Assembly (NCBI GenBank): GCA_025602905.1
Contig: JAHLKI010000001.1
Span: 1 to 64,000 of the forward strand
DNA: 64,000 nt
Direction of reading: 5' to 3'
Origin: Phlyctochytrium arcticum
Taxonomy: Eukaryota; Chytridiomycota; Chytridiomycetes; Chytridiales; Chytridiaceae
Of this stretch, positions 3,019-43,706 are shown one piece after another. The position numbers and the translations under genes are program-made. The notes under the pieces are model-generated. The model was not told the DNA's origin. It saw only the letters and a list, made by a program, of their open reading frames with translations, and ran no database searches. Position 1 is the first letter of the stretch. Every line of letters starts with the position of its first letter.

Positions 3019-3330
3019 CATTTTCACAAACATCACAGACTAACATAAGCTGCTGAACGTCGTCCCAGTCCGTCGGCTATGGAGCAATGTTGTGCTGCCA
3101 CGAGCGTAGGGCCCTCTGTATCAGTGCCAGAGTTTGGTAGTATCGAGGGATCGCGGAATCTCATGGATATACTTGAGGCAAACCCAAAACTTGGCAGTCA
3201 CATCAATTGCTTTGTTTTCAGCCTGTCGAGGTTACTCCTGCATGGTCAGGAAAGATGTGCATCATTCACTTCTTTATTGCAGTATTGCCCACACATGTAT
3301 GTCCGCTAGCATTTGCTCAGTTTGTGAGGT
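3019..3330 (+). pseudogene. F-box/LRR gene relic
   Basis: The DNA matches the F-box half of the genes at 8830 and 10370 (TTTTC-CAAACATCACAGACT, TGTGCTGCCAC-GCGTA-GG, CTTGAGGC-AACCCAAAACTTGG, and the GTATGTccGCTAG donor region at about 3296). Reading frames are broken in several places and the LRR half is missing. It ends near the family's conserved intron donor. It is a decayed member of the local F-box family, not a gene. Confidence 0.75.
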
Positions 3331-3621
3331 AAAATACAATCTGGAATGTTTTTGCCAATTTGCCTTGAAGAATTTCAACGCAACAACAAGGGTTGGGACC
3401 TTGGCCCAGGTAAAGGGAGTCCCGAAAGTTTCAGAGGAGCTGCAGCAACTCTGGCAGCAGCAATTCTTTCAAATCCTGTTGCGATCAGTTCTTTCAACAA
3501 TGTGACTACTTGGCAAAAACAATGAGACGGGATTCGTGACGTAGAGTAGCCAATGATCCAAGTACCCACAATGGGCGGTGTTCAATTCCTGGGCGAGACT
3601 CAGCGCCGGGATAATAATTCG

Positions 3622-4313
3622 CTACAGGTTGATGGACCCGGGGTGCCGAAAGAACCAGTAGTTGGTGAGTAACACCCAGGCGGTCATACCCGGGGACGAT
3701 GCCAGCACGCTTTCGAGGAAATTGGCTTTGCCGGTTATATGGTAAATGTGGACGGGGACTTCTTCGTGATGGCGTTTATGGATTGCTCGATACAATGACG
3801 GGACTGTTACTCCGTGAAGAAGCCGGTGAGCAAAGTAGTGGAATGTATCAAAGCATAAATAGATGGCGGTGGTCGATAAGATGATGTCCACGGGATGAAA
3901 ACTCCAATCGAGTCCCTCGGTCGCCACGCGAGACAGGATATGCTTGACCAAAAGAAAGACGGGCAGAAGCGACGTGACGAATAAATCCCAAAAGTTTTCT
4001 GATGTGTACCGGTGCATGTCACCACGACGTTTCAGGACTTGACGGTTAAAGTAGAGAGAATTCGTCCATTGCTCAAATAGATATTGAGGGTGATGAGGAA
4101 GGCGCTGAATAGGCCAGACCCCACGGCTGTTAGCCCAATCGTTGGCAATGCATCCATCATACTCGAGTATAGAATCACCCACATTCCCACAAAAGACGAA
4201 CTTATTACAATCGGGAAGAGCAGGCGGGCAGCTGGGCGTACCGTATGGCATTGCTGAGGGTCACTCTTTCGTAAGTTTGTAAGCAGGTTCGTAAGTTCCG
4301 TTGAATCACCCAT
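3622..4313 (-). pseudogene. sterol desaturase / fatty acid hydroxylase fragment, frame-broken and truncated
   Basis: Two overlapping minus-strand frames together read like the first two thirds of a fatty-acid-hydroxylase-superfamily membrane enzyme. Hydrophobic helices (LLFPIVISSSFVGMWVIL; GLTAVGSGLFSAFLITLNIYL) lie in the frame that starts at 4313. The next frame holds YLFEQWTNSLYFNRQ, another helix, then two di-iron histidine clusters, HYFAHRLLH and HKRHHE. The frame must change near 4070-4080, with no plausible splice there. The reading stops at 3622 shortly after WVLLTNYWFF, before the C-terminal histidine cluster that the family needs. It sits between F-box relic sequence (3.0-3.3 kb) and F-box 3' flank-like sequence (about 4.5 kb). 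Confidence 0.75.
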
Positions 4314-4937
4314 TGACGGACGGGGGCTGGGTTGCTCATACAGGGTAGGCTACACAAAGGCATTTCGCACCTCATCAGAAATGTGGAATCTCTAGGACAT
4401 ACATGGTAAATTTGGGTTGAACCATCTGCTGTCGGAGGTGATGATTGAATGTCTCCAAGATCCTAATGCTCCTCTTACCTATCGGTAAAGCGTCACGTAG
4501 TTTCCGCTGTTTATAAGCAAAAAGAATAAACTCATGTTTGTTCCTTTGCCCTTCAACTGCATGTATGTTGTCACCCTTCTTTTGTCACGGCAATGTACCT
4601 TCAATTAATTTATTTGGCGAGAAGCATCAGTCTGAATCCCACCGAATGCGCTACGGAAGAAAGGTATGCTCTGTATACTGGGAAAAGAAAACAATAAGAA
4701 ATTAATAACACAGCTACAGTAATTGGCTGATTACAACATAGCGCATCAGGGACTATACTCCCTTATGAGGTATGATTCGGATCATGGTCGAACCCACCAC
4801 ACTTTTGGACCTAGTCATCGGATAGATCTATCCAAAGAAGCTTTCAGCATCATGTCGTCGTATCGAGCATCCGCTTCAACAGAGTCTATGTAAACCTAAG
4901 AGTGTACTCTACTAGCCTATAAACAGTGGAAACTACG
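4314..4937. other. non-coding, contains F-box-family 3' flank
   Basis: No gene seen. The stretch around 4496-4580 (ACGTAGTTTC-GCTGTTTATA then CCTTCAACTGCATG) is similar to the 3' flanks of the F-box genes at about 9900 and 11555, so the local duplication reaches here. Confidence 0.5.
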
Positions 4938-5228
4938 TTACAGTGTAGGAATCAGATAAGAGACCCAGCAAGATACTGGAGACACAAAGATATCACCTTG
5001 GCCATCAGATGGCTCATTGTAAAAATACGATGCATATCCCAGAGCTTCCAGATTTCCGATAAGATGCGGCGGGCATTTTTTGAGTAGCATGACCAACTCC
5101 ACCCTTCTAACCCGGTCACTTCGAGATTCTGCAAATCTGCGAAAGCCCAAATGAACGTGAAATATGTCAGGTCGGGATGGACTGCCAATTACTAACTTCT
5201 TGAGTGCCGCTGAAGAAGCGACCCTCAT
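4938..5228 (-). other. possible 3' coding remnant linked to the F-box family
   Basis: The minus strand is open and protein-like (ALKKLVIG..., LLKKCPPHLIGNLEALGYASYF). The last part is similar in DNA and protein to the stretch downstream of the F-box gene at 10370 (SLGNVGYASYF, about 11460-11500). The intact paralogues stop before this segment, so it is either an ancestral last exon lost from use or conserved 3' sequence. Confidence 0.35.
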
Positions 5229-5429
5229 CCTGACGCGACATACTTGCCTGTGGAGGCACGAGTGGATGCCGGTAAGTAGCGCGTCAATTCAATGTCTCGC
5301 ATTTTATCCACATCATTTCCGCCGCCTAGCAGCATAAATATAAAGACCATCAACCCCGGTCAGAATATACCGAGTCTTCAGTACGGCATCAAGGAGATCC
5401 GAAAAGTACAGTAGCGAGCGTCAGTTTCG

Positions 5430-6212
5430 TCATTCGAGGTTTATATAAAGATTCTCCGGTTTTTTAGAATTTATCCGCGAGGGGGACAAGTCGCACTTGG
5501 CCACACTCAACCATGATAGGTTTGTGGCATGCTCACAAATGTAGTCCACAGTGCTTCCCCGTACACGTGTGCAGCCTTCTAGCCACAGCCTGTTGAGTTT
5601 TGGACACCCATCTACTATTTTCCGAATTGTTGTATCGGCCACATTTAAATGGGAGATGTCCAGCTCAGTCAATTGTGCGCAATTCGTTGCAATAGCTAGC
5701 AATCCCTTTCTTGTGACGTTTCTGCAATATGGGATGCTCAGATCTTCCAGGGATTTGCTGTTTTCTGCCAAAGCGACAATCAATGCATTGTCCAATAAAC
5801 GACAGCGAGCCTCGTGAAATACAACACTATTGGTAGATGATGAGTCAAAAAAAAGCTGCAACAGTTTCGGGCTGACATACATGTTTGGGCAATACTGTAA
5901 TAAAGAAGTAAGCTGAATAACATCTCTCCTGGCCAGGGAGGACGATTCCGATAGGCAATCCTCCCAGCAACCGACGAGACGGCCAAGTTGAGGACTGGCC
6001 TCCAGGATGTCCATCCATGTTCGAAATTTTTGGATATCATGAAACCTTGGCTGCTGATAGATAGAGCCGTACGCTCGCGGGAGCACAATAGTTCGCCATA
6101 GCCGACAGACGAGGACAAACTTCAGCAACGCTCGTCGGTCCCTGATTTTGTCGAAAATGCAGACAATGACTTCTGGGGGGAGTCTGGGGAGTCTGACGCC
6201 AGCGCTTGCCAT
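5430..6212 (-). CDS. F-box / AMN1-like LRR protein
   Basis: Predicted substrate receptor of an SCF ubiquitin ligase. The F-box would bind Skp1 and the leucine-rich repeats would bind the target. Exons 6212-5881 and 5826-5430 give 242 residues. The F-box core is LPRLPPEVIVCIFDKI...LVCRLWRTIVLPRAYGSIY (residues about 8-50). The second exon has AMN1-type repeats such as LEDLSIPYCRNVTRKGLLAIATNC and LTELDISHLNVADTTIRKIVDGCPKL. The 54-nt intron (GTATGT...CCAATAG) is a multiple of three and free of stops, so an unspliced reading also stays open; the position is shared by all four family members. I chose the ATG at 6212 because the family starts MASAGxR or MTIAGAR; an in-frame ATG at 6293 also exists. 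A conserved 30-bp element lies 82 bp upstream of the start. Confidence 0.85.
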   Translation of the reverse strand: MASAGVRLPRLPPEVIVCIFDKIRDRRALLKFVLVCRLWRTIVLPRAYGSIYQQPRFHDIQKFRTWMDILEASPQLGRLVGCWEDCLSESSSLARRDVIQLTSLLQYCPNMYVSPKLLQLFFDSSSTNSVVFHEARCRLLDNALIVALAENSKSLEDLSIPYCRNVTRKGLLAIATNCAQLTELDISHLNVADTTIRKIVDGCPKLNRLWLEGCTRVRGSTVDYICEHATNLSWLSVAKCDLSPSRINSKKPENLYINLE

Positions 6213-6293
6213 TTTTTCTGTGTTTAGGAACAAAGTTGTCTCGCTGGGCTGTGGTCTGAGTTTGCAGTGATTGAAGGCTGCAGGTACAGTCAC

Positions 6294-6323
6294 ATCGCCA
6301 CGCTTACGTGAAAATAACTCCGC
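6294..6323 (-). promoter_or_regulatory. 30-bp element shared upstream of three F-box genes
   Basis: On the minus strand this reads GCGGAGTT then 6 variable bases then ACGTAAGCGTGGCGAT. It matches 8748-8777 and 10239-10268 at nearly every base, while the sequence between the element and each start codon has diverged. The core contains ACGTAAG, which could be a bZIP-like site or a 5'-UTR splice donor (AC|GTAAGC). Confidence 0.6.
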
Positions 6324-6555
6324 AGCACCAAAACAGACCTACGGTATCCAGATTAAAGTTCAAAGGTGTTCCATCCAAGCAACTTGGCAAGTACAACAAA
6401 TCCCACGAAAATGATGCCACGGGAGAAATTCTAGTATATGAACCGAGTGAAAATAGACAAAGAACAATAAGAAACCAAGTACACAGCTAGTTGGCTGAGC
6501 CTAACATAATGCATCCGGGATAGCTCAGAAGCCAAATACAAACATTCAATTGTCA

Positions 6556-20201: not shown

Positions 20202-21610
20202 CTAATACAATAACCGCGTGTGGACATTCTGCTCGAGCGCATCGATCCGGTCGTAAATGCTCTGATAGTCCTGCTCATTCTCGACGAGGAGATCCGCCAT
20301 AAAGTAAGCAATCGCCCCCCGCGAATCGCAAATCTGCTTTTCAATGTTGAACTCGGAAAGAACCTTGTTGAGTTGCTATTTGTCAAAAGAGTTAGTATCG
20401 GGTAGGGGATGCGAGAAAGATGGAAAGACAACAAACCTTCAAAACACCAGGAACGTTCTGGTGGACATTGAGAATGCGGACCGTCTTGGAATCCGCAGAG
20501 GGTGCTCGGAGATCGCACTCGGGAAAGTTGACGGCTCCCAGTGTCGTGCCGGCATTGACGTAGCGGACAAGAGCCGCACCCACCTCAACACCGATGGAGC
20601 TCTGGGCTTCCTCGGTAGATCCACCAATGTGTGGAGACAAGATGGTGTTGGGGCAGCCAATCAGCTCGCTCTGAAAGTTGGGTCCGTTGGCAAATGGCTC
20701 GACCGGGTACACATCAACCGCCGCTCCACCCAAGTGACCTGAACGCAGCGCAGCTGCCAGTGCTGGAATATCGACGACGGTTCCTCGCGAGGCTTGCAAC
20801 ACGTACGCGCCCTTCTTCATCAATCCCAGCTCACGCGCTCCAATCATGTTTTTGGTCTCGTCCGTCTCGGGAACGTGTAATGAAACATAGTCGGCCTGGG
20901 CAAGCAACTCGTCCAATGAGGCAACGGGGCGCGCAGTACCGAGCGGCATGATTTGCAAAACATCGTAAAAGATGACAGACATGCCCATGGAATCGGCAAT
21001 CACGGACAATTGGGCACCAATGTGACCGTATCCAACAATACCCAGCGTCTTGCCACGAATCTCGTTACAGTTTTTGCTCGTCTTGTTCCAAACTCCGCGG
21101 TGCAGCTCATTGTTGCGGTCGCCCAATTGCCGTGACAGCGCAATAATTTCAGAAATCATGAGTTCGGCTACTGATCGGGAGTTGGAAAATGGCGAGTTGA
21201 AGACGGCAATGCCATTGTCGGCGGCAAACTCCAAATCCACTTGGTTGGTACCGATACAGAAACAGCCAATCGCGAGCAGCTTTTTGGCTTCACCCAGAAT
21301 GTCCGCCGTGAGCTGCGTCTTTGAGCGCAGACCAATAACGTGCACATCCTTGATCTTTTCACGCAGGACGGCGGGGTCCAGGGCCTTGGCGTGCGTCTCG
21401 ACCTGGTACCCGGCCTTTTCCAAAATTGAAATCCCCGTCTTGTTTACACCTTTGATGAGATCGTGATTAGATACACACTGTAGCTCCCCTTTACGATACA
21501 AAAAACATACCTTCAAGCAACAGAACCTTGATTTCGCCATTGTCGAGCGGTTTAAGCAATTTGGGAGCAACCGGTCGGCGCTGCGTTGAGTGTTGAGGAG
21601 CCAAAGTCAT
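20202..21610 (-). CDS. SER3: D-3-phosphoglycerate dehydrogenase (Ser3/SerA type)
   Basis: First step of the phosphorylated serine pathway: NAD-dependent oxidation of 3-phosphoglycerate to 3-phosphohydroxypyruvate, in the cytosol. Exons 21610-21511, 21449-20437 and 20375-20202 give 428 residues, close to fungal Ser3. The N-terminus reads KPLDNGEIKVLLLEGVN. The substrate-binding half follows (IGLRSKTQLT, GCFCIGTNQVDL). The Rossmann NAD site is LGIVGYGHIGAQLSVIA, and catalytic residues lie in LQASRGTVVD (Arg) and LSPHIGGSTEEAQ (His). A C-terminal ACT domain (TVRILNVHQNVPGVLKQLNKVLSEFNIEKQI...YFMADL) suggests serine feedback control. Both introns are 61 nt. The second falls inside the ACT domain. 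Confidence 0.96.
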
Positions 21611-22283: not shown

Positions 22284-25200
22284 TCACACCCGATCGTCGG
22301 CTGCCAGACCCGCCAATGTATCAATCTCTTCATTGCCGGTATTCATAATAACACCCCCTAAATCCCGAATGTCCTGGCCCATCTCGCGATGCCGCAGCAG
22401 TGACCCAACGGGCGTAATGGATGTGTTGGTCGTCGACCCCCCTCCGCTGGTTTGTGATGAATTCAGGCCGGGCCGACGCGGGTTACTCAGTGCCGACGCC
22501 GAGAGCTGTTGCTGCGAGGGATGCGATTGCTGGTGATGAAGTAGGTATGGTGTTGTGAGCGGTGATCCGGGCGCGGTAGCGGTTGTGGTGGTGGTGGTTG
22601 GTATTATTGAAGAGGTCGGCCCGGTAGGAGCAGAGGGAACCGGAGGAAACGGCGAAGAAGACAAAAGATCCTGCGACTGGGATGTGACAGACTCGTGACC
22701 GGACCGGATGGACCCACTCCCAGCCAGTCGCGAGCCGCCGAGTGCCCCGCTACTACTATTGACGCTGGGTAGACCCGCCGCAAAACCAGCCGCCCGCGTC
22801 GTGCTGGCCATTCCCGGTGTTCGTGAGGCAACCGACGTAGTGGATTGCCCCGAGCTCAAACTTCCTTGCTGGTTTTGCGCATGAATGGTTTGGGACAGCG
22901 TCAGCCCGACCCAATTCTGCCGGTTTTTGCCAATTTCGCGGACAATCTTGCCGACCTTTTCTGTTGTCTGGAATGTGGCCCATGCATCATAGAGCGGCGC
23001 AACCAAAATGTCGATAAATCCAATCTAAAACCATACCCAACCTTTTTAGTTTTGCATCCAGCATTGGGAGTCGGTCGCAGCTCTTACCTGACATTTGGGC
23101 ACATTCGTGTTACCGCGATCCATAAATTGGGAAATGGCCAGTCCCAACTCACGCTCCCGATCCCCTTGCATATAAAACTCCTCCATAACCGCTTCAGTCC
23201 ATTTACTCGACAATGCAAATGTTTTAGTAGGATTGCACAGATCAGAACACTTTAAGGCTATTTCCGCCACTATCATTCGCGTTTCCACCGTGTCAAACTT
23301 TAAAGTGGAGGCCGTGAGTTTTGCCTTAAATTTGTTAATGTATTCAAAGTGCTGCGCAAATGACTTATTAGAATCCCATGTTCTACGCCAAATAAAGCAT
23401 AAGCGGGGTATGTACCTTGCCCATATCGGTTGCAAGAATGAGGCGAATGACGATCCGACGCAATTCGTCAAACTCTTCATTTGTTAGGTCCGCGAAAATG
23501 TTGAATGGGGAACTGAGCGTCATGCTAAACATGTGTGCACAATGGTGAAGTTCCAGAACTGATGCGTCACTAAGGAGTCTCTTTGTTAAAATCAAGTTTC
23601 GCGATTCCAAATCCATTTGGATCCTCACCAATACAGAATGGCCCATGGATGATGACTTTTGACCAAAAAGTTGTTATTATAACCTGGATGATCAATGTCA
23701 TGCCCGACGGCGCTCATCACCAGGGCTAGAACTTCCAAAGGTGTGTAATGTGCGCCAATCGGGTCTTCAATGAGCAGGAAGTTAAGTGCGTGGAGGACAT
23801 CGGCGGCGTGCGTTGCATTGTGGTATGGGTGAGGATGGTATTCTCCTTCCATCAGCTGTGAACCAACCAAAATCCGTTAGATCATTCGTCTTGGGGCGTA
23901 CAATAATCGCAAACCTACCAGTATCCACCGTTTGAACTTGTCCAGGTCCAAATGCAGAGAGTTCAAAGCCTGATTTGACTGAAATAGGTACACTCCCGAA
24001 TAGTACAATGGATGCCCATCGGTCATTTCGTTGAATTGAAACATGTCAAAATTCCACGAGTGGTACCATATAGACAAATAATCCATTATTTTGACCTGAT
24101 CGGTACTACTCAGTTCACGCGTAAGTGGGGTATGGTATTGTGGGTCATCCAGCTGGCGTGACACTCCTCCCACCATCCCAGAGCGGGTGGATTCAAAACT
24201 ATCCGCTAGGTGCCGAGGCACTGTCCTGGGTGTTGTCCCGCTCGTCATTCCTCCAAAAGACCCGCGACGCTGCCGCAAACCTTGTGCACCACCCACCATA
24301 GATGTAGCTCCTTGCGGCTCATATCCCATTACTATACCCCCCGATCCAACCGCAATGCCGCTCATAGAATCAGGCATCATGCTCGTCCGGGACTTTTCTA
24401 CCGCCGACTGTCGCTTCCCATCCAATAATCCTCTCGAGACGCGGCGAATATCCGGATTGGTCGAATCCGAACTCTGCCTCGAGACAGGAATGGGTGCTCC
24501 TCCACTGGCCGCAACACTTGATGATTGACCCCCCGTCGCCAGCATCCCGAGGACCCATGCCCGAGTTTCTGCGTCGACTTTCACGCCTTCTGGTCCTTGC
24601 AATTCCAGCATGGGATTAAAAGCATTGGTACCACCACTGTTGAGCACCTCCATCAGAAAATCAATGTCATCGAGTGTAATCTTTCGTTTCTTTGCTGGAT
24701 CGCGGGCATCTCGTAGGAGTTCCATTGCTTTCTGCGCTGTACCAGATAAATCGAATTTAGGTATCTGCTCCATAAGAAGAATATCAGCCGGTTATTTGCA
24801 ATCGCTAGCTCTTCGACAAGAAAAAAAAACCTACATGGCCTAACGGCTTGGTGTCGAGATCTAGTTCTGTGCGACGTCTATGTTTCGCAGCTAACCAAAG
24901 GTAAAGGAGACCTCCACTTCCCAGGAATATCAGGACAACAGCAATGAGTGGGGCGAGGATGACGAGTTTCCAGTTAAACGGTTCTAATAAAAGAAGAAGC
25001 TCATTTCAATTCGAATCTTGTAATTACTTTAGCTATGCGATACGTACCTGGTGCAAACTGCGCAATCGTTTGAGATGGGATGACCTCGGACCCGTCGCTA
25101 AAAATTATAGGTGACACGATTTCGAGGTCGGTGGTAGACTTGGAGTAGCCGAAGTAATTTAGTTTGCCGTTGGCAAGGTAATAGTACTTATACGGCCTTC

Positions 25201-27133
25201 AAAAAGAAAGTTTGACCCGGGATTTTCAATGAGCCGAAACGAAACAAACTCACGCTATAACGGTGTTGCCGTTGGTAAAATCCATGTAACCCAAAACAGT
25301 TTGGTATTTGGGACAGCTGAAGTTGGTAGAAACGTTGAGTTTAGGGATGATGGGCCCACTCCAGCCAGAGGCAATCTGGCTAATATTGTTTGTATTGTTC
25401 GCGTGCGAAATAGCGTCGTAGCCACGGATGAGAAGATCAAGGCATGCATGGTATGGTCTGGAATTCCTGCCATTTCAACAAACTGATGTTCGGCGAAGGA
25501 TATTTAGACTCAACACTTACAGAAACTCGTCTGGTGGATCCAAGTAAACGCCGGTTAGCGTGGGATACCTGGAGATTCGACAAGCGATTCTTAATAATGC
25601 TACATAATGCAAGATCAGATATATTTACCTGGACTGAAAGTCTGTTGTATTCCAGCGTTCTGTCATCCATGTGTATGCGTCTCCCGTTCCTCCTTGTGGG
25701 AAGATGACTAGTGCCCAAGAGAGCATACTTATGGTTGCGGGTTCGTAAAGTTTTAGCCAGCGGTACGCCTCCCCCGTAATAATCCAAACGTAAGGTGGTG
25801 AGGTCATACCAAGCGGTCTGTTAAGATTAATACAAGTGTGGTGTTTCCCATGCATTCAGGTGCAAACTTACTGCGCAGTTCTTATTGCTAGTCCCAATGA
25901 GCGGCCATCCATTTCGCAAACGAAAATTGCGGATCGGGACAGGGCAATACGATTCATTTGCGGCATGTAATCCACTGATGTTCCACCACCATAGGCAGGT
26001 ACGAAATTTTCATAGTATATTTTGGTCTTGTCCGCATTGGGAAGTGCCGAAAGTTTGGCATCTGTTTCTGGATTGGAACAGAGTCGTTATGACTTTTTGG
26101 TGGACTGGGTAGTATCATTGATACATACGTGAATCCAACGCAAAGGTGTTCAGCAGGGTGAATGAGAACCACCCCAACCGCTCCATTAGCTTGACTTTGG
26201 CCGTAATACGTTGGAAGTGGTCAGGCACCACGCGAATAAATGACGGGAAGCCGTCAGAAGGATAGTTACTGGAGAATGCTGGAGTAACAATATGTTTTAG
26301 AACCTCAAATGGTATTTCCCACTCTAGTCTCTGTTGCCGGCCCTACCGTTGCCTTCACAGTACGGTAGATTGAAAATACCAGCTTCATACGCGGCGTCTT
26401 GTGAGTACATTGAAGCGACACCTTGTTTAGACATGTGAGCATCCCATCAAAAGCTAGGAAAGACATCGTGACGCAACGTACCGACGAATCCCACAGCGTG
26501 GTGTTTAGCGAGTTCACTAATAGCTTGTACCGCCAGCGGTCGAATATCCAAGCTTTTGGCCGCCACCATACTAATATTGGCCCCAGGCAGCATGCCAGCA
26601 TACTGCAAATAATCAATAACCATGGCAAACCACTCGCGGAGTGGCTCGGTTGTGTTGTCGATCTGGGGAACGACATATCCTATTTGAATTTGAGGGGCGT
26701 TGGAAGAGAGCGTCTGTCTAGGCAGTATGCGTTCAATGGGTGGTATAAGGCGCAAAGCTGTATGGAGTCGATCGACATTCAATTCAGATCCCCCGCTCCG
26801 TGGCATGCGTGGTGATGATGCATCTAGTGCTCGCCGTTTGATCTCTCGTTCCTTGGGATTCGAGGAGGTGGAACCGTGATCCGAATCATCCTCTTCGTCA
26901 TCCATGTTTTCCTCTATTATTGGCCGATGCCGTCCATCTATCTGTAGTCCTGATGTCGTAACTTCTTCACAATCCGCATCTCTGCAGCTCCTCTGCCCAG
27001 CAGCGGGAACAGCCCCAGCCGCAACAGCTACCCCTACTTTCGAAGATCCAACATGACCCATAACGGAAGGCAGAACCCAGCAGCACGTTCCCAGACAGAT
27101 GCCAATAATGGACCGCAATCGCGTTCGACGCAT
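22284..27133 (-). CDS. single-pass receptor phosphodiesterase (ANF-receptor ectodomain + class I PDE)
   Basis: Fourteen exons: 27133-26482, 26421-26347, 26278-26129, 26067-25872, 25817-25629, 25568-25521, 25466-25254, 25196-25048, 24983-24835, about 24767-23919, 23855-23629, 23569-23416, 23351-23088 and 23024-22284. They sum to 4056 nt, about 1351 residues. A signal peptide (MRRTRLRSIIGICLG...) and acidic linker precede a type-1 periplasmic-binding ligand domain (residues about 145-520): IQIGYVVPQID, ELAKHHAVGFVGVASMYSQDAAYEAGIFNLPYC, FSSNYPSDGFPSFIRVVPDHFQ, MERLGWFSFTLLNTF. One helix (about 564-587, LVILAPLIAVVLIFLGSGGLLYL) ends in AAKHRRR. The cytoplasmic catalytic domain (about 780-1140) has YHNATHAADV, GHDIDHPGYNN, LELHHC, LILATDMGKHFE, ALKCSDLCNP and CQIGFIDI. 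Metal ligands are H906, H942, D943 and D1054; the general acid is H902 and the nucleotide glutamine Q1105. A Ser/Thr-rich tail follows. Predicted to hydrolyse cAMP and/or cGMP under control of an external ligand. Exon phases close at every junction; the exon 9/10 acceptor (CAG or GAG at about 24767) is the least certain. Confidence 0.88.
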
Positions 27134-33400: not shown

Positions 33401-36400
33401 ATGCAAGTCGTATGGCAAATTGATCCCGCCAACTGCGACAAGCAACATCGAGACCTTTCGCTGATGTCTTTGAACTGTAGCTTGGAAACGTTGCGCCAGG
33501 AGATATTTGCCGTCACATCTATACCGCCAGTAGCTCAAATTTTGTTGACTGCAACCGGTACCCAAGTGAAACAGGATACCCTCGACGAACTGCTCTCCGG
33601 AAAGGGCCCCAGTAATGTACTAAATGTCACATAGTTAAGAAAGGTCACTTCCTCAAACGTATTCCTTTAGGATGATGTCCTTATATATGTATTTAACCGT
33701 CAACTACTGGACTCACGCACTGCCGCCGGCGGATTGATGCCCGTCCTTCCAGATTTAGAACCCCCTGTCCCACACAACGGTACTCAATCGACATTGTTTG
33801 TTTGGGCGGCGGCGGAGACTAATTTTATGCCCAGTCATAGAAGATGCTGTCATTCCAGACAATGTCGATGCTGTGAACGCGACCTCTTTGCTCGAGGATG
33901 CCTTTCGATCTCATTGTCGGTTTGGTCAAGCAACGCTTGCCACCGCTAAATACCATTATGGAATCTGTGAAAGATTGTTGAGCGAGCAGACTGTACAAAC
34001 CGATGCGTTTGTCATTGCTCTTACCAATTTGCAAGGCCACAGCCGATCTATCTGCGAGGCATTTGATGTATTTTACCAACACGCGCAGCGGGAGATTGCC
34101 AAGCACACTACCCGGATACAAAGCTTTCCCATTGATATGCAAGCACTGAGTCATCTTCCTGTCCACCCTGCTATTGCAGACGGAGACAAGTACCTGGCAG
34201 ACTATGTGCCGCGCGACAAGCTTGTAGCGTGGGCAGAAAACTGCCGTACTGCACATTCACAACTGGTGCGAAAAGTAGCAGCCTTGGCTGATACAGCAAA
34301 AGCAATCAGAACGGGAACAGATTCAGAAACTTCACAACCGCTGGACGTGGATCTGCGTCAAATGCGGTCGTATTTAGCTGAGGAATTTGACGCACTACAA
34401 AGGATAGAGGCAAAGCAGCAGCGCCTTGAACGAGACTTGACCAAAGTTGAAGAAATCCTGAATGACATACGGTCAAATCCAGGCAATGCTCATGAGAAAC
34501 TCACTTCTTTGAAGCATCTTCGACATATCCATCACCAAGACTATCTCCCGCAAATGATGGATTTGGACGAGTCTATTCGGAAAATTGCCGGTGTATTTAT
34601 TGATTCCAAGGCCCATCTCACACAACAGCTAATCAGTCGCTTACAACTAATATCCCACTTACAATCCCAAATTGCTACCGTTATGCCCACTCTCAACAAC
34701 CTCGCTTCAGTTCTCAACGCCCATATTCAAGCATTTGCTCAACTATTACATGTCCATCGGATGCCCGCTGCATGGGGTGCAGCTTTGGTAGAAATTGTTC
34801 GGCGCCGCGAGTTTGTAACTATTTTCTTGGGAAAGGCCAAGGAAATGGCGGAAGTACTAGCCCGCTTCCGGATGCAGGAAGAGCGACGACGAGAGACGTT
34901 TCGCACGGAAATAGGCCGATATCTGCCCGCAAAGTTGATTAACGGCATGGAAGACAAGCCTCCATACTGCGAAGTCTCATTTTCAAACACGACAGATCAT
35001 CTTCCGGAACTCAGTCGCGAAGACATCGCGGCTTTCGAGCGCCTGGTTTCCACCCTGCTCACCAACATTGTCGAAAATGAAGCTCCGGGAACGTCGGCCA
35101 GTCACATTCACTCCAATCACACCATATCGAAATTGATTGCGACCATGGTCAAAATGTCGAGTCAATTGGACGCAACTTCCAGCGAATTTGACCGCATTCT
35201 GAGCAAGTCGGGATTCTCGGATCGAATGTTGCGGTTGGAGGAAGAGAATTTGCGCTTGAGAGGACAGCTGCATGGCGGCGGTGCCGTTCCCATCACTTCC
35301 CGCGCGCCATCTTCCGGGCCATCAGACGCCGCGCAGGCAAATTCGTCAGCGCAGGTGGATGCCATGGTCCTGAAAGGAAAATTGGCGGAGTGTGAGGCAA
35401 GATGCGCAGTTTTGGGAAGCCGAAATGGAGATTTAGAAGCCACAAGATCCAAGCTTTCGGAAACTGAACGTGAACTGGAAGCAGAGCGGAATCGGAATCA
35501 CAAACTCGAAGAACGATTGCGGGAGATGATGGCCCAGCAACGTGACCATGCCGCCGCACGGCATGACGTTGACCGAGACAAAGAGGCCAGTGCCCAAGAA
35601 GCCACAGTCCTGAAAACCGAACTGGACAAGTTGAAACATTTTTTAACGGAGGTTGAAGAGGGAGTGCAAGCATGCTCTTCAGCGTTACACCGGCAAAGGA
35701 GTCAGACGCCTTCACCTGAACCTTCGGAACGTATAGCCAGGGCACCCAATGTCACAACCACTCCCGATGAGGTCCGTCGATCCTTGCGTGAACTGCAAGA
35801 TGAAATTTTGTGTCAGACTGCCCAATTGGCTGGTGTTCAAAGCCAGTTGCGGGAACATGATGCCGACGTGAACGATATGACATCTGGGGTAAGCTAGCTT
35901 GAAATATCGTGAGATACCCTGTCCTAACTTACTGAATGTTTTAGTCTGTGGAGAGTGACATTGTTGCGCTCGCTACACAGGTCGGCAGTTTGACGGCCGA
36001 CCTACAAGAAGCGCGTAGTCAACTGCGCGAGTTGCGCGAACACCTTACAGCAACAGAAGCCCATGAGGCTGTCATTGAAGCAGATTTAGGTTCCACGCAA
36101 GCCTTACTCAAGCACGCCCAAGAAGATTTGGTCAGTGTGAGGCAGAAACTTGTCGTCTCAGGCACGGAGCTGGGCATCGCCAAGGACGCCCTGACTGCGT
36201 CGCAAGAAAAGGCTGGCCAGCTGCAAGATGAACTTGCTGATCTGAAAAAGCAAGCTGATCATGCCGAGGGCGAGGCGCAAAGTGCCAAAGCTCAGATGGA
36301 GATTTCGGCCGTGCTGTTGGCGGAACGCGATACTAAAATTGACGAACTGCAGCAGCGAATTTCCTCTTCGGACGAGGAAACCCGGCAATTACGGGATAGA

Positions 36401-39752: not shown

Positions 39753-42700
39753 CTAGCTAGGGACTGAGGAGGCAATGGCCTTAACGTCGTCGAGTGAAAG
39801 AATTCTCAAAGTGCGGCAATGAGCGGTGAAGGCAACTTTGGGAAGCGGTTTGGTGAAAATGTCAGCTGGCATATTCTTGGTCGAGAGGTAGGAGAGAGTG
39901 AAGGTCTCGTCTTTCAACTTTTGGCGAATGAAATGGTGCTTGGTGTCTATGTGCTTGGTTTTGCCGGTGGTCTTGTTGGTTTTGGCGAGCGCAATCGCAC
40001 CTTGATTGTTTGAGCAGATGGGGACGGGGGACGTGACGCGGCAGGGTAGGGGTTCCAAAAGGCGGAGGACCCACATTGACTCTTGGGTGGCAGTTGTTAG
40101 GGCGACATATTCTGATTCGACGGTAGACAGCGACACGGTGGGTTGGAGACGGGAGGCCCAAACGACGGGCGCGTACATATTTGTGTTGGTTGATAAAATA
40201 GCCACCGTTGGGAAGGGGATGGAATTCGATGCCTGATTGATAAGAAACTGGTCCGGCATCAGTGGCCTTGAACGTAGACGAAATCCAGCCTTTGACAGTG
40301 GTGACAGACTCAAGGGTACCAGTAATCAGAATATCATCGACAATAATGGCGAGGAGAACGTTCAATTCCTTGTGGTAATAGAGACAGTCGTCGGCTGGGT
40401 TTCGCTCGAAATTCCATTTTTGGGTTGCTGTCTCGTCCCAGGTCTCGTTCCATTCGTAGGCTGATTGTTTAAATCCATAAAGTGTTTTAAGGGCTTGTAG
40501 ACATTTATCTTTCGGAATGTCGATGCCTTTCGGCGGTTTAAGATAGAGTAGTTCCTTCATCCATGAGTTCAAATAAGCATTCGCTATGTCCATCTGGTGG
40601 AGGACTTCCTTCTCGGCGTTGGGCTTACGGGATACGACGAAACTGACAACAATCCGAATAGTGTTGGTTTTTGCAACGGGAGCGTAAGTTTCTTTAAAAT
40701 CGATGCCGGCTTTTTGGGAATATCCACAACCTACGAAACGGGCCTTGTAACGGTCTATTTCGCCATTTGGGAGGTACTTGGTTTTGAAAACCCATTTTGA
40801 GGATACGACGTTCGCGCCTTTGGGGATATTGACAATTGCGAAGGTTTCTTTTTCGGTCAGACTTTTCCATTCTTGTTGCATCGCAGCTTTCCACTCAGCG
40901 CTTCTGGGTCCAGCAATGGCTTGCTCGTAAGTTGCAGGATCGAGGCTACTTGATGTTGCTAAAGCTTGGGCAATCACGGCGCCATGTGAAGGTACAACCG
41001 GGGGATTCTCAATGAACATTGGCTTATGCGGGACGAGGTCAAATTCATCGGAATATGCATCGCGTGCGTAAGTTATTTTGTCGGTTTGGGAGTCCCAGAA
41101 TTTCCAGCCTTTGATGCCGTCAGTGTAGCCGATGAAATGAACTTTGTCGGCTGCGCGGCTTGACTTGCTGACTCGGACCGGGGTAGGAACATAAATATAG
41201 GCGGTGCAACCCCAAACTTTCAAATTTGAGACGTCAGGCTTGTGTCCATAGTAAGCTTCGTAAGGGGTTTTGCCAGTCACTGAGTAGATGGAGCAATTGC
41301 GGACATAACACGCGGTAGCATAGGCTTCGGTCCAGAGACGGGTGGGTAGCGCGGTCGTGTGGAGAATGCTGCGGCCCTTGCGGGCAATCACACGAATAAT
41401 AGCTTCGGCGCTTCCGTTCTGCTGTGGTGTGTATCTTATACTGATCCGGTGTCGAATGCCAAAGTCTCGGTAAAAACTTTGAAAAATGCCAGAAGTCGTG
41501 TACTCGGATCCACCGTCGGTTTGCAGTTGCTTTACTTTGTGACCGGTTTCGTTTTCGACTAGGTTGAGCCATTCAAGGAAGACGTTGTAAATATCACTTT
41601 TGGCCTTGGTAAAGTATATCCAGCTATAACCTGTCGCGAAGTCAATGAAAACAATCAAGTATCGTTCCAAACCAATAGCTTCTTCGTAGGGGCCAGAAAT
41701 GTCGGAGCCGACACATTCGAGGACTTGGAGAGGATCGCCTGAGGACCGCTTGAAGGGAAATCTTTTCATGGCACCGTATATGCATCCTTCGCAAATACGA
41801 TTAGGGTCAGTGATATCCTTCACTGTCGCGTTCTTGAAGACTGATTCGGGTATGCCATCAACTATCTTCGAGGTAACTAGGGTATTCTTCGCTGAAAGGT
41901 GACAGTAGCGTCTATGCCAGAGTTCGCGGGTAAGCTGAGGGGAGGCGACTGCGGTGGGACGTGCGGTATTTGTGACAACAAGACCATGATCGGGGCTTGT
42001 ATTGTGGGTAGCCAAAGGGAATAGGATTTGGTCCAGGTCTGTTGGGCAAGTCAAGGTGTTGAGTTCGTAAAGGTCAGTGGCCGGATTCAACTTAGCACGT
42101 AGAACAATTTGGGCAGCGTTGTCCATTAGGGGATTGGCGTTCAACATCAGGGCTTCTGTGTCGGTGAAGATCCAGATATATCCTTGAGCTGCTGTCTGTT
42201 TGCACGAAAGTAAGTTGAAGTTAAGGTCCGGAACGTGCAGAACATTCTTGAGGAGAATTGGCGTGTGGTCAATTGATTCAAGGTGCAAAGTCCCAGAGCC
42301 TAAAGAGGAGATCCGGTTGCCGGAGGCAACGGTGACTTGGCTTGGAGAAGAAACAAAATTAGTCAGGATTGATTTGAAAGGGGTCATATGTTTCGTTCCA
42401 CCACTGTCAATAGTCCAAATGTTAGGTACGGGGTCGTCGTTGGAGGGCGCTAGACCGAGTGTGACCAGGCCACGAGGATTGTTGCTATCACGAGGTTTCC
42501 CATTTTTCTTTGATTTGTGCTGTGGGGTTTGTCGATTGGCTAGTTTCTCTGGTGTGTTGGTTTCCAACCACGCCTTGTTGTCGGCATATGCTTTCTTACA
42601 AAAACGGAACCAATGATCCGTGGATTTGCAGTAGATACAGTACGTCGGGCCTTTCTCCCTGTTGTTGTTGTGGGAGTGTTGTTGACCGTCTGTGGTTGCT

Positions 42701-43706
42701 AATGCTTGTGGGTTATCGGATCGGCGGGATTGGCCACGATTTTGTTGCTGATTCTGGTTCGGTTTATTTTCAACACGGCGTTTGTTTCGTAGGGACAAAT
42801 TGCCCTCGTGATTCAATACTTTTTCTTGAATTTCGCGAAGGGTCAGACTATCTGGTTTGGAGCCAGTTGCCGTACATGCGATACTGAGGGCGTTGTAGGC
42901 ATCTTCGGGTAAAGCTTGCAGATAGTAATCCCTGGCTTCAGAGTTGGCTATAGCTCCTGAGCCACGTAAGGAAAAAATTGTTTGGCGCTGCTTTTCAAAA
43001 TCTCGTGTCATATCGTTCAACGTCTTGTAGTCTTGGTGGGTGATTTGTTGTAGGCGAGCTTTCAGATGGGCAGCGTCAAAATTATCTCCAAAAGTAGGGA
43101 TGAGAAACAGTTCTTTAAAAGTGGTAAAAGTCCGCATTTGCGTTCGCCAGAGAGGAAAATCTTCTTTGTACGTGCGCCATTCAACTCCAGCAGTGCCGGT
43201 TAATCTTGAGATGACGGTAAAAACTAGCCTTTGTCCTGGCTAGAAGGTTGTCTCTTCGGTGTATGCGTAAGCATAAGTTTCGATGCGGTCAATGAATTCG
43301 AGGAGTTGGGTTCCTAGGTTTGAACTATCGCCAGAGAAGTTTGGGATGTGATTTCGTAGGTCCTTTAGATTCTCAGATTCTCGTACTGGTGGGAGACCAG
43401 CGGTGAGGGGGGTTTTTTGCTCCATGTAGGTAGGCTGTTGATCAATTCTTTCCTGATACGGGAGATACGGGATTTGGTTCTGTGCGGCTTGCTTGTTTTC
43501 GAGGTTGAGGATCGCCGTTTCGAACCGTCTCATTTGTTAAGCTTGTTGTTTGTCTCTTTGTTTGCGATCGTTGGTCTCATTTTCCAAGCGACCAAGTAAG
43601 AGAAGAAGGGTGTCTTGAATACGGGCGACAGTATCGTTTTGCTGTTCTTCTTGTTGTTCATCCGTATCTTCGTGTTCTTCTTCATTGTTCATGTTCATTT
43701 TCATCT
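39753..43706 (-). pseudogene. copia Gag-Pol, inactivated
   Basis: The Gag start is at about 43706 (MKMNMNNEEEHEDTDEQQ). In order: Gag, zinc knuckle (CIYCKSTDHWFRFC), aspartic protease (WTIDSGGTKHMT), integrase (LWHRRYCHLS...CEGCIYGA zinc site; catalytic D-D-E in GSDISGP, LQTDGGSEY and NGSAEAI), reverse transcriptase (MDIANAYLNSWM; YYHKELNVLLAIIVDDILITG) and RNase H end (TVSLSTVESEYVALTTATQE...TKHIDTKHHFIRQ...MPADIFTKPLP). Lesions: in-frame TAA at 43537-43539, in-frame TAG at 43240-43242, and loss of about 100 residues plus a frame change near 40170-40190, between the RT connection and RNase H. It cannot make a full polyprotein. Confidence 0.9.

Follow-up and report, generated by a model that had tools for sequence, protein, structure and literature searches.

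A predicted receptor phosphodiesterase of flagellated fungi with a Venus-flytrap ectodomain and a single membrane helix

Does a single gene join an extracellular ligand-binding domain directly to an enzyme that destroys a cyclic nucleotide? The question is raised by a locus of the chytrid Phlyctochytrium arcticum, which lies in a stretch of 64,000 nucleotides (assembly GCA_025602905.1, contig JAHLKI010000001.1, positions 1 to 64,000; hereafter the window). A first reading of the bare sequence (the original prediction) had proposed here one gene for an ectodomain of the ANF-receptor type, one helix, and a class I phosphodiesterase (PDE). Sequence analysis and structural modeling show a predicted protein in which a secreted-type Venus-flytrap (VFT) domain, similar in kind to those of GABA-B and glutamate receptors, is followed by one helix, a conserved linker (~80 residues), and an intact PDE domain of class I, PDE7/4/8 type. 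We consider it probable that a single gene here encodes a receptor phosphodiesterase of flagellated fungi, and this enzyme would act as a ligand-gated dimer on cyclic AMP (cAMP).

The rebuilt gene occupies 27133–22284 of the minus strand, with 14 exons and 13 introns of 54–70 nt, all 13 of which are GT-AG. Extent and exon number reproduce those of the original prediction exactly, while the length comes to 4053 nt (1350 amino acids in a single frame) rather than 4056 nt. In the chosen frame the only stop is the terminal one, against 42–73 stops in the five remaining frames of the spliced sequence, and retention of any one of the 13 introns breaks the frame. The exons of this splice model are as follows.

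27133-26482, minus strand: exon 1
26421-26347, minus strand: exon 2
26278-26129, minus strand: exon 3
26067-25872, minus strand: exon 4
25817-25629, minus strand: exon 5
25568-25521, minus strand: exon 6
25466 (or rather 25457)-25254, minus strand: exon 7, second acceptor from the public model and the alignment
25196-25048, minus strand: exon 8
24983-24835, minus strand: exon 9, the helix exon
24764-23919, minus strand: exon 10
23855-23629, minus strand: exon 11
23569-23416, minus strand: exon 12
23351-23088, minus strand: exon 13
23024-22284, minus strand: exon 14

The public model of the same gene (DFS34DRAFT_366, P0001; 1021 amino acids) is identical to rebuilt residues 327–1350, minus the three residues N438-S439-R440 at intron 6, where it splices to an acceptor 9 nt downstream. 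We aligned the family in 25 rows (the rebuilt model, P0001–P0023, and P0026, with P0001 being the same gene). The N438 and S439 columns are empty in all 24 other rows, and the R440 column is filled in P0008 only. Because the other rows lack these residues (P0008 alone having the third), exon 7 probably starts at 25457, for a protein of ~1347 amino acids. Since P0001 begins within exon 4, it has neither the leader nor the initial half of the ectodomain, and its Pfam list contains the PDE only. The N-terminus proposed originally looks better than the public one, as the relatives P0002 and P0003 open with a similar basic-hydrophobic leader. Though made independently, P0001 still has all three parts, ectodomain, helix, and PDE, within a single model. 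The parts of the protein map to the window as follows.

27056..27133, minus strand: putative signal peptide, amino acids 1–26 (hydrophobic segment 6–24; similar leaders in P0002 and P0003)
25052..26692, minus strand: VFT (type-1 periplasmic-binding) ectodomain, ~amino acids 148–556, exons 1–8
24904..24969, minus strand: single transmembrane helix, ~amino acids 563–584, exon 9 (hydropathy, charge flanks, orthologue model)
24765-24834, minus strand: intron 9, 70 nt, between helix exon and catalytic exons; close to exon 10 it contains an in-frame ATG (MEQ then IPKF)
24516..24764, minus strand: conserved juxtamembrane linker, ~amino acids 608–690 (alignment)
22887..24014, minus strand: class I PDE catalytic domain, ~amino acids 858–1150, with four introns inside
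23820..23822, minus strand: general-acid histidine H901 (H902 in the original prediction), H in all 23 covered rows of 25
23088..23090, minus strand: purine-holding glutamine Q1104 (originally Q1105), final codon of exon 13, Q in 25 of 25 rows

Two Pfam domains exceed their curated thresholds, ANF_receptor at 173–385 (39.8 bits, cut-off 25.4) and PDEase_I at 900–1123 (273 bits, cut-off 24.8); no third domain of the full protein does. The predicted ectodomain has the two lobes of the type-1 periplasmic-binding fold. Hydropathy peaks at 2.52 over residues 564–582 and indicates one helix only besides the leader; its inner flank is the more positive in 21 of the 22 rows with filled helix columns (25 rows aligned), and a structure model of an orthologue has a membrane helix at 480–517. 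The catalytic residues named earlier are all present, numbered one lower (H901, H905, H941, D942, D1053, and Q1104). All 23 rows that cover H901, H905, H941, and D942 agree at these positions, as do the 24 that cover D1053, and N1056 and Q1104 are found in all 25. We take H901 to be the general acid and Q1104 the glutamine that holds the purine, from established knowledge of PDEs.

Four known classes were considered and set aside. There is no kinase-homology or guanylyl cyclase domain above the Pfam cut-off, as natriuretic-peptide receptors would have. Class C G-protein-coupled receptors (GPCRs) are excluded by the one helix and by the absence of 7tm_3 from the protein and from the genome rows within the window. 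The single helix (hydropathy, orthologue model) also rules out a seven-helix GPCR-PDE or bigram, and the Pfam scan contains no microbial rhodopsin domain, which rules out a rhodopsin phosphodiesterase.

The same fusion occurs in other species. A search with residues 560–1130 (E≤1e-10; 7991 candidates scored, making the counts lower bounds) matched at least 33 proteins, of which at least 17 carry both PF01094 and PF00233 in precomputed tables. Among chytrids these are from Spizellomyces (2), Geranomyces (3), Borealophlyctis, Rhizophlyctis, Nowakowskiella (2), Chytridiales sp. JEL 0842, Dinochytrium, Blyttiomyces (2), Phlyctochytrium bullatum, P. planicorne, and Zopfochytrium; the fusion is also found in the blastoclad Sorochytrium milnesiophthora. 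The layout is therefore not unique to this protein. Its scheme of VFT ectodomain, one helix, and class I PDE in a single gene is backed by these gene models, by P0001, and by the orthologue structure prediction. The Spizellomyces protein is colinear with the window across both halves, over 26704–25061 and 24764–22737, and the reversed window gives no match. That two adjacent genes were joined in error, for which the sole support is a doubt raised in the original prediction, is scarcely credible against this colinearity, the 17 fusions among the 33 matches listed, and the public model; we reject two separate genes.

A second possibility, compatible with a receptor, is that one locus gives two products, a soluble linker-PDE from a start in intron 9 and an ectodomain with its helix when intron 9 is retained. 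The in-frame ATG of intron 9, a short way ahead of exon 10, lies in an open reading frame (23877–24791) and is a conceivable internal start, retained intron 9 ends the frame, and the models of some relatives have short or absent ectodomains. We regard this as improbable, given that intron 9 is an ordinary GT-AG intron and that P0001 and the 17 relatives among the matches listed are fusions.

Three further searches concerned the range of the fusion. With the ectodomain alone, a protein search returned just P0001. An alignment search for fusions outside fungi gave five proteins, none of them a non-fungal fusion, at a poor reach that missed nine of the 11 query rows; the five were the query-row fusions P0010 and P0014, one VFT protein without a PDE, and two plant glutamate receptors. 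At six other PDE loci of the same genome there was no match to the ectodomain profile (E≤1, 10 kb, frame by frame, by which a weak one could escape).

What kind of receptor does the ectodomain resemble? By profile, its nearest relatives are plant GLR3.4, NMDA GluN1, GABA-B2, and T1R3, and no natriuretic-peptide receptor is among the best 60 of 363 or the best 60 of 154 profile rows. Because Foldseek and VIA searches with the full-length model listed PDEs only, the ectodomain was modeled alone; the predicted fold lies nearest to GABA-B VFTs, ~4 Z units above the natriuretic-receptor rows. The natriuretic comparison made originally holds as a structural analogy of shared fold, and kinship beyond that is not supported, since profile and fold are both nearer to the glutamate/GABA-B types. 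All seven other ANF places found in the genome adjoin a class C seven-helix (7tm_3) domain, and no ANF row occurs within 90 kb of any of the 19 Guanylate_cyc rows. In the same genome, three class C seven-helix matches stand in tandem within 8.5 kb (G000:C12:403199-411624, plus strand). Two cyclase loci, G000:C1:1518771-1519487 (plus strand) and G000:C13:347494-348210 (minus strand), have paired rows of equal or nearly equal score (101.8/101.8, 59.2/59.4, and 28.2/28.2 bits) and reflect either a recent duplication or a duplication in the assembly.

The catalytic domain is nearest to PDE7A (7.3e-68), then to PDE4 and PDE8. It has an N-P pair aligned with its PDE7A counterpart, the N of which is invariant in the family. 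The PDE7, PDE4, and PDE8 families are cAMP-specific, and the N alone also occurs in cyclic GMP (cGMP)-specific PDE9. Because of the latter, it is the kinship of the whole domain, and not the N, that argues for cAMP and points to it as the predicted substrate. A role for cGMP remains conceivable because the accessible part of a paper on Blastocladiella reports cGMP phosphodiesterase activity, and a title cited there names independent cAMP and cGMP phosphodiesterases (PMC4046227). A natriuretic-receptor-like sensor with a peptide ligand and cGMP as substrate nevertheless appears quite improbable, in view of the higher-ranking GABA-B folds, the PDE7/4/8-like catalytic domain, and the N-P pair in common with PDE7A.

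The linker appears to be a shared module. A hidden Markov model of residues 608–690, built from 22 family rows and applied at E≤1, matches 28 of the 36 proteins examined. Beyond the family it matches two proteins with kinase, AAA, and GAF domains before the PDE (P0024, 3.6e-17; P0025, 2.4e-12) and a GAF-PDE (P0027, 3.6e-15). On 13 stretches of the same genome it found one other gene, on contig C34 (2.3e-13), and a weak match at a PDE locus on contig C10 (0.017). The C34 gene (L025, G000:C34:36400-46300; ~3023–6393, plus strand) has a GAF-like stretch, then the linker, then a PDE; its catalytic frame is divided among exons, its GAF assignment is by likeness to P0024 and P0025, and these two have kinase and AAA domains in addition. 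Against solved structures, the linker returned designed Pizza proteins and chance matches, nothing trustworthy. Retained behind two kinds of sensor, the linker would look like a signal-passing element. A weak linker match (1.5e-4) also occurs in P0028 of Geranomyces michiganensis, which has six hydrophobic segments and no Pfam domain before its PDE, and is possibly another membrane sensor-PDE.

How might the parts work together? The protein would act as a dimer. A small molecule in the outer cleft would change how the two VFT domains are placed toward each other, the helix and linker would relay this change to the paired catalytic domains, and the rate of cAMP hydrolysis just under the membrane would be altered. 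Ligand gating is likely; activation by the ligand, with cAMP falling, is the simplest guess. Identity to the window protein is 19–37% in the ectodomain (rows with >300 aligned residues; P0019 and P0001 excluded) and 47–84% in the PDE domain (P0001 excluded). That the ectodomain evolves faster than the slow catalytic domain is consistent with a receptor that may have changed its ligand between lineages.

The same divergence would also suit an anchored, unregulated PDE with constitutive hydrolysis, in which the VFT domain only targets the enzyme, dimerises it, or pairs it with a class C GPCR or cyclase. In 14 aligned ectodomains W224 and G258 are the sole invariant residues, so that the alignment reveals no common ligand site; GABA-B2, whose fold is one of the closest, binds no GABA itself; and the seven places of VFT-class C receptors in the genome provide possible partners. 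Still, the two-lobed fold and linker have been kept over Chytridiomycota and a blastoclad, which exceeds the needs of an anchor, and the linker is present in another sensor-PDE family too. We judge an unregulated enzyme to be unlikely.

Several observations weigh against a ligand-gated receptor. In the orthologue model, 125 residues (601–725) between the linker and the catalytic domain have a predicted local distance difference test (pLDDT) score below 50, and much of the linker itself is at 44–73; a region modeled in this way gives no support to stiff mechanical coupling. For the window protein the ANF_receptor match is modest, and the gene is missing from the 11 ANF rows of an exon-by-exon genome search. 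Six family rows have no ANF_receptor in the precomputed Pfam list. P0004, P0013, and P0026 retain 264, 140, and 83 ectodomain residues, respectively, P0015 and P0016 have almost none, and P0019 has none recognisable. In a midpoint-rooted maximum-likelihood tree of 30 catalytic domains (P0001, P0024, P0025, and P0033 dropped), the 24 family rows group together (97/98) and GAF-type P0027 joins next (91/83); several forks are open, and P0023 of Sorochytrium is on a long branch. Rows with receptor and truncated layouts are intermixed (six changes, equally low in 138 of 500 shuffles). Because the ectodomain-less rows are scattered within the family group, truncated models and genuine losses cannot be told apart.

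Our wider reading of the receptor phosphodiesterase is evenly balanced between right and wrong. It holds that in flagellated fungi an undescribed class of ligand-gated transmembrane PDEs couples an extracellular amino-acid- or GABA-like signal to cAMP destruction without G proteins, that the linker and PDE form an output cassette which these fungi also use behind intracellular kinase-GAF sensors, and that the fusion arose before Chytridiomycota and Blastocladiomycota diverged.

Other features of the window are as follows.

20395-21606, minus strand: D-2-hydroxyacid dehydrogenase frame, just past the 3' end of the receptor PDE
33759-35894, plus strand: frame with an ATG17-like autophagy domain
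39865-43239, minus strand: Copia-type retrotransposon polyprotein (RVT_2, retroviral SH3-like, and Pol_BBD above cut-off; rve and gag_pre-integrase below their own cut-offs)

Natriuretic-peptide receptor guanylyl cyclases consist of a VFT ectodomain, one helix, a kinase-homology domain, and a cyclase. The fungal protein shares with them a VFT domain, one helix, and a cyclic-nucleotide enzyme, but they make the messenger, carry the kinase-homology domain, and are less similar in fold to its ectodomain than GABA-B is. To our knowledge, VFT receptor enzymes (these and the trypanosomatid adenylate cyclases) all make messenger.

The portions available of four sources allow further comparison. Trypanosomatid receptor adenylate cyclases (PMC6027212) likewise have a VFT ectodomain, one helix, and a cAMP enzyme; with two VFT domains and a cyclase, they are the mirror image of the fungal protein. 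Early fungi, chytrids included, were reported in 2012 to have class C (GABA-B/glutamate family) GPCRs that carry ANF_receptor domains (PMC3251606, in whose text the word phosphodiesterase is absent). The ectodomain of these receptors is of the same kind, but they have seven helices and a G protein where the receptor PDE has one helix and an enzyme. Oomycete GPCR-PDE 'bigrams' (PMC6033456) combine receptor and PDE in one protein, but with a GPCR as the receptor part, in another lineage, and without the layout of VFT and single helix. The choanoflagellate rhodopsin phosphodiesterase (PMC7644710) has a 76-residue linker proposed to dimerise and relay the signal, and resembles the fungal protein in its order of membrane sensor, linker, and PDE and, if the latter is a dimer, in that as well. 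Its sensor is an eight-helix light sensor and its PDE, likened to PDE9, is active on cAMP and cGMP, whereas the fungal protein has a PDE7/4/8-like domain behind a VFT ligand domain.

In the open-licence literature we found no description of a VFT/ANF domain on a class I PDE, and the text of a paper on a fungal light-sensing system (PMC9616733) mentions neither phosphodiesterase nor cAMP. The original statement that no receptor of this layout had been described stands only within the reach of that search, but automatic domain tables already show the layout. The receptor half has been hidden because databases name many family proteins PDE4D, 7A, or 8B. The receptor-PDE fusions that we found in print have multi-helix sensors. 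A VFT domain on a PDE would be the missing converse of the VFT cyclases, with an external ligand directly affecting how the messenger is removed, and a case of a class C type ectodomain on an enzyme in place of seven helices. It would give work on how zoosporic fungi sense chemicals a testable receptor, and possibly a chemically gated PDE tool.
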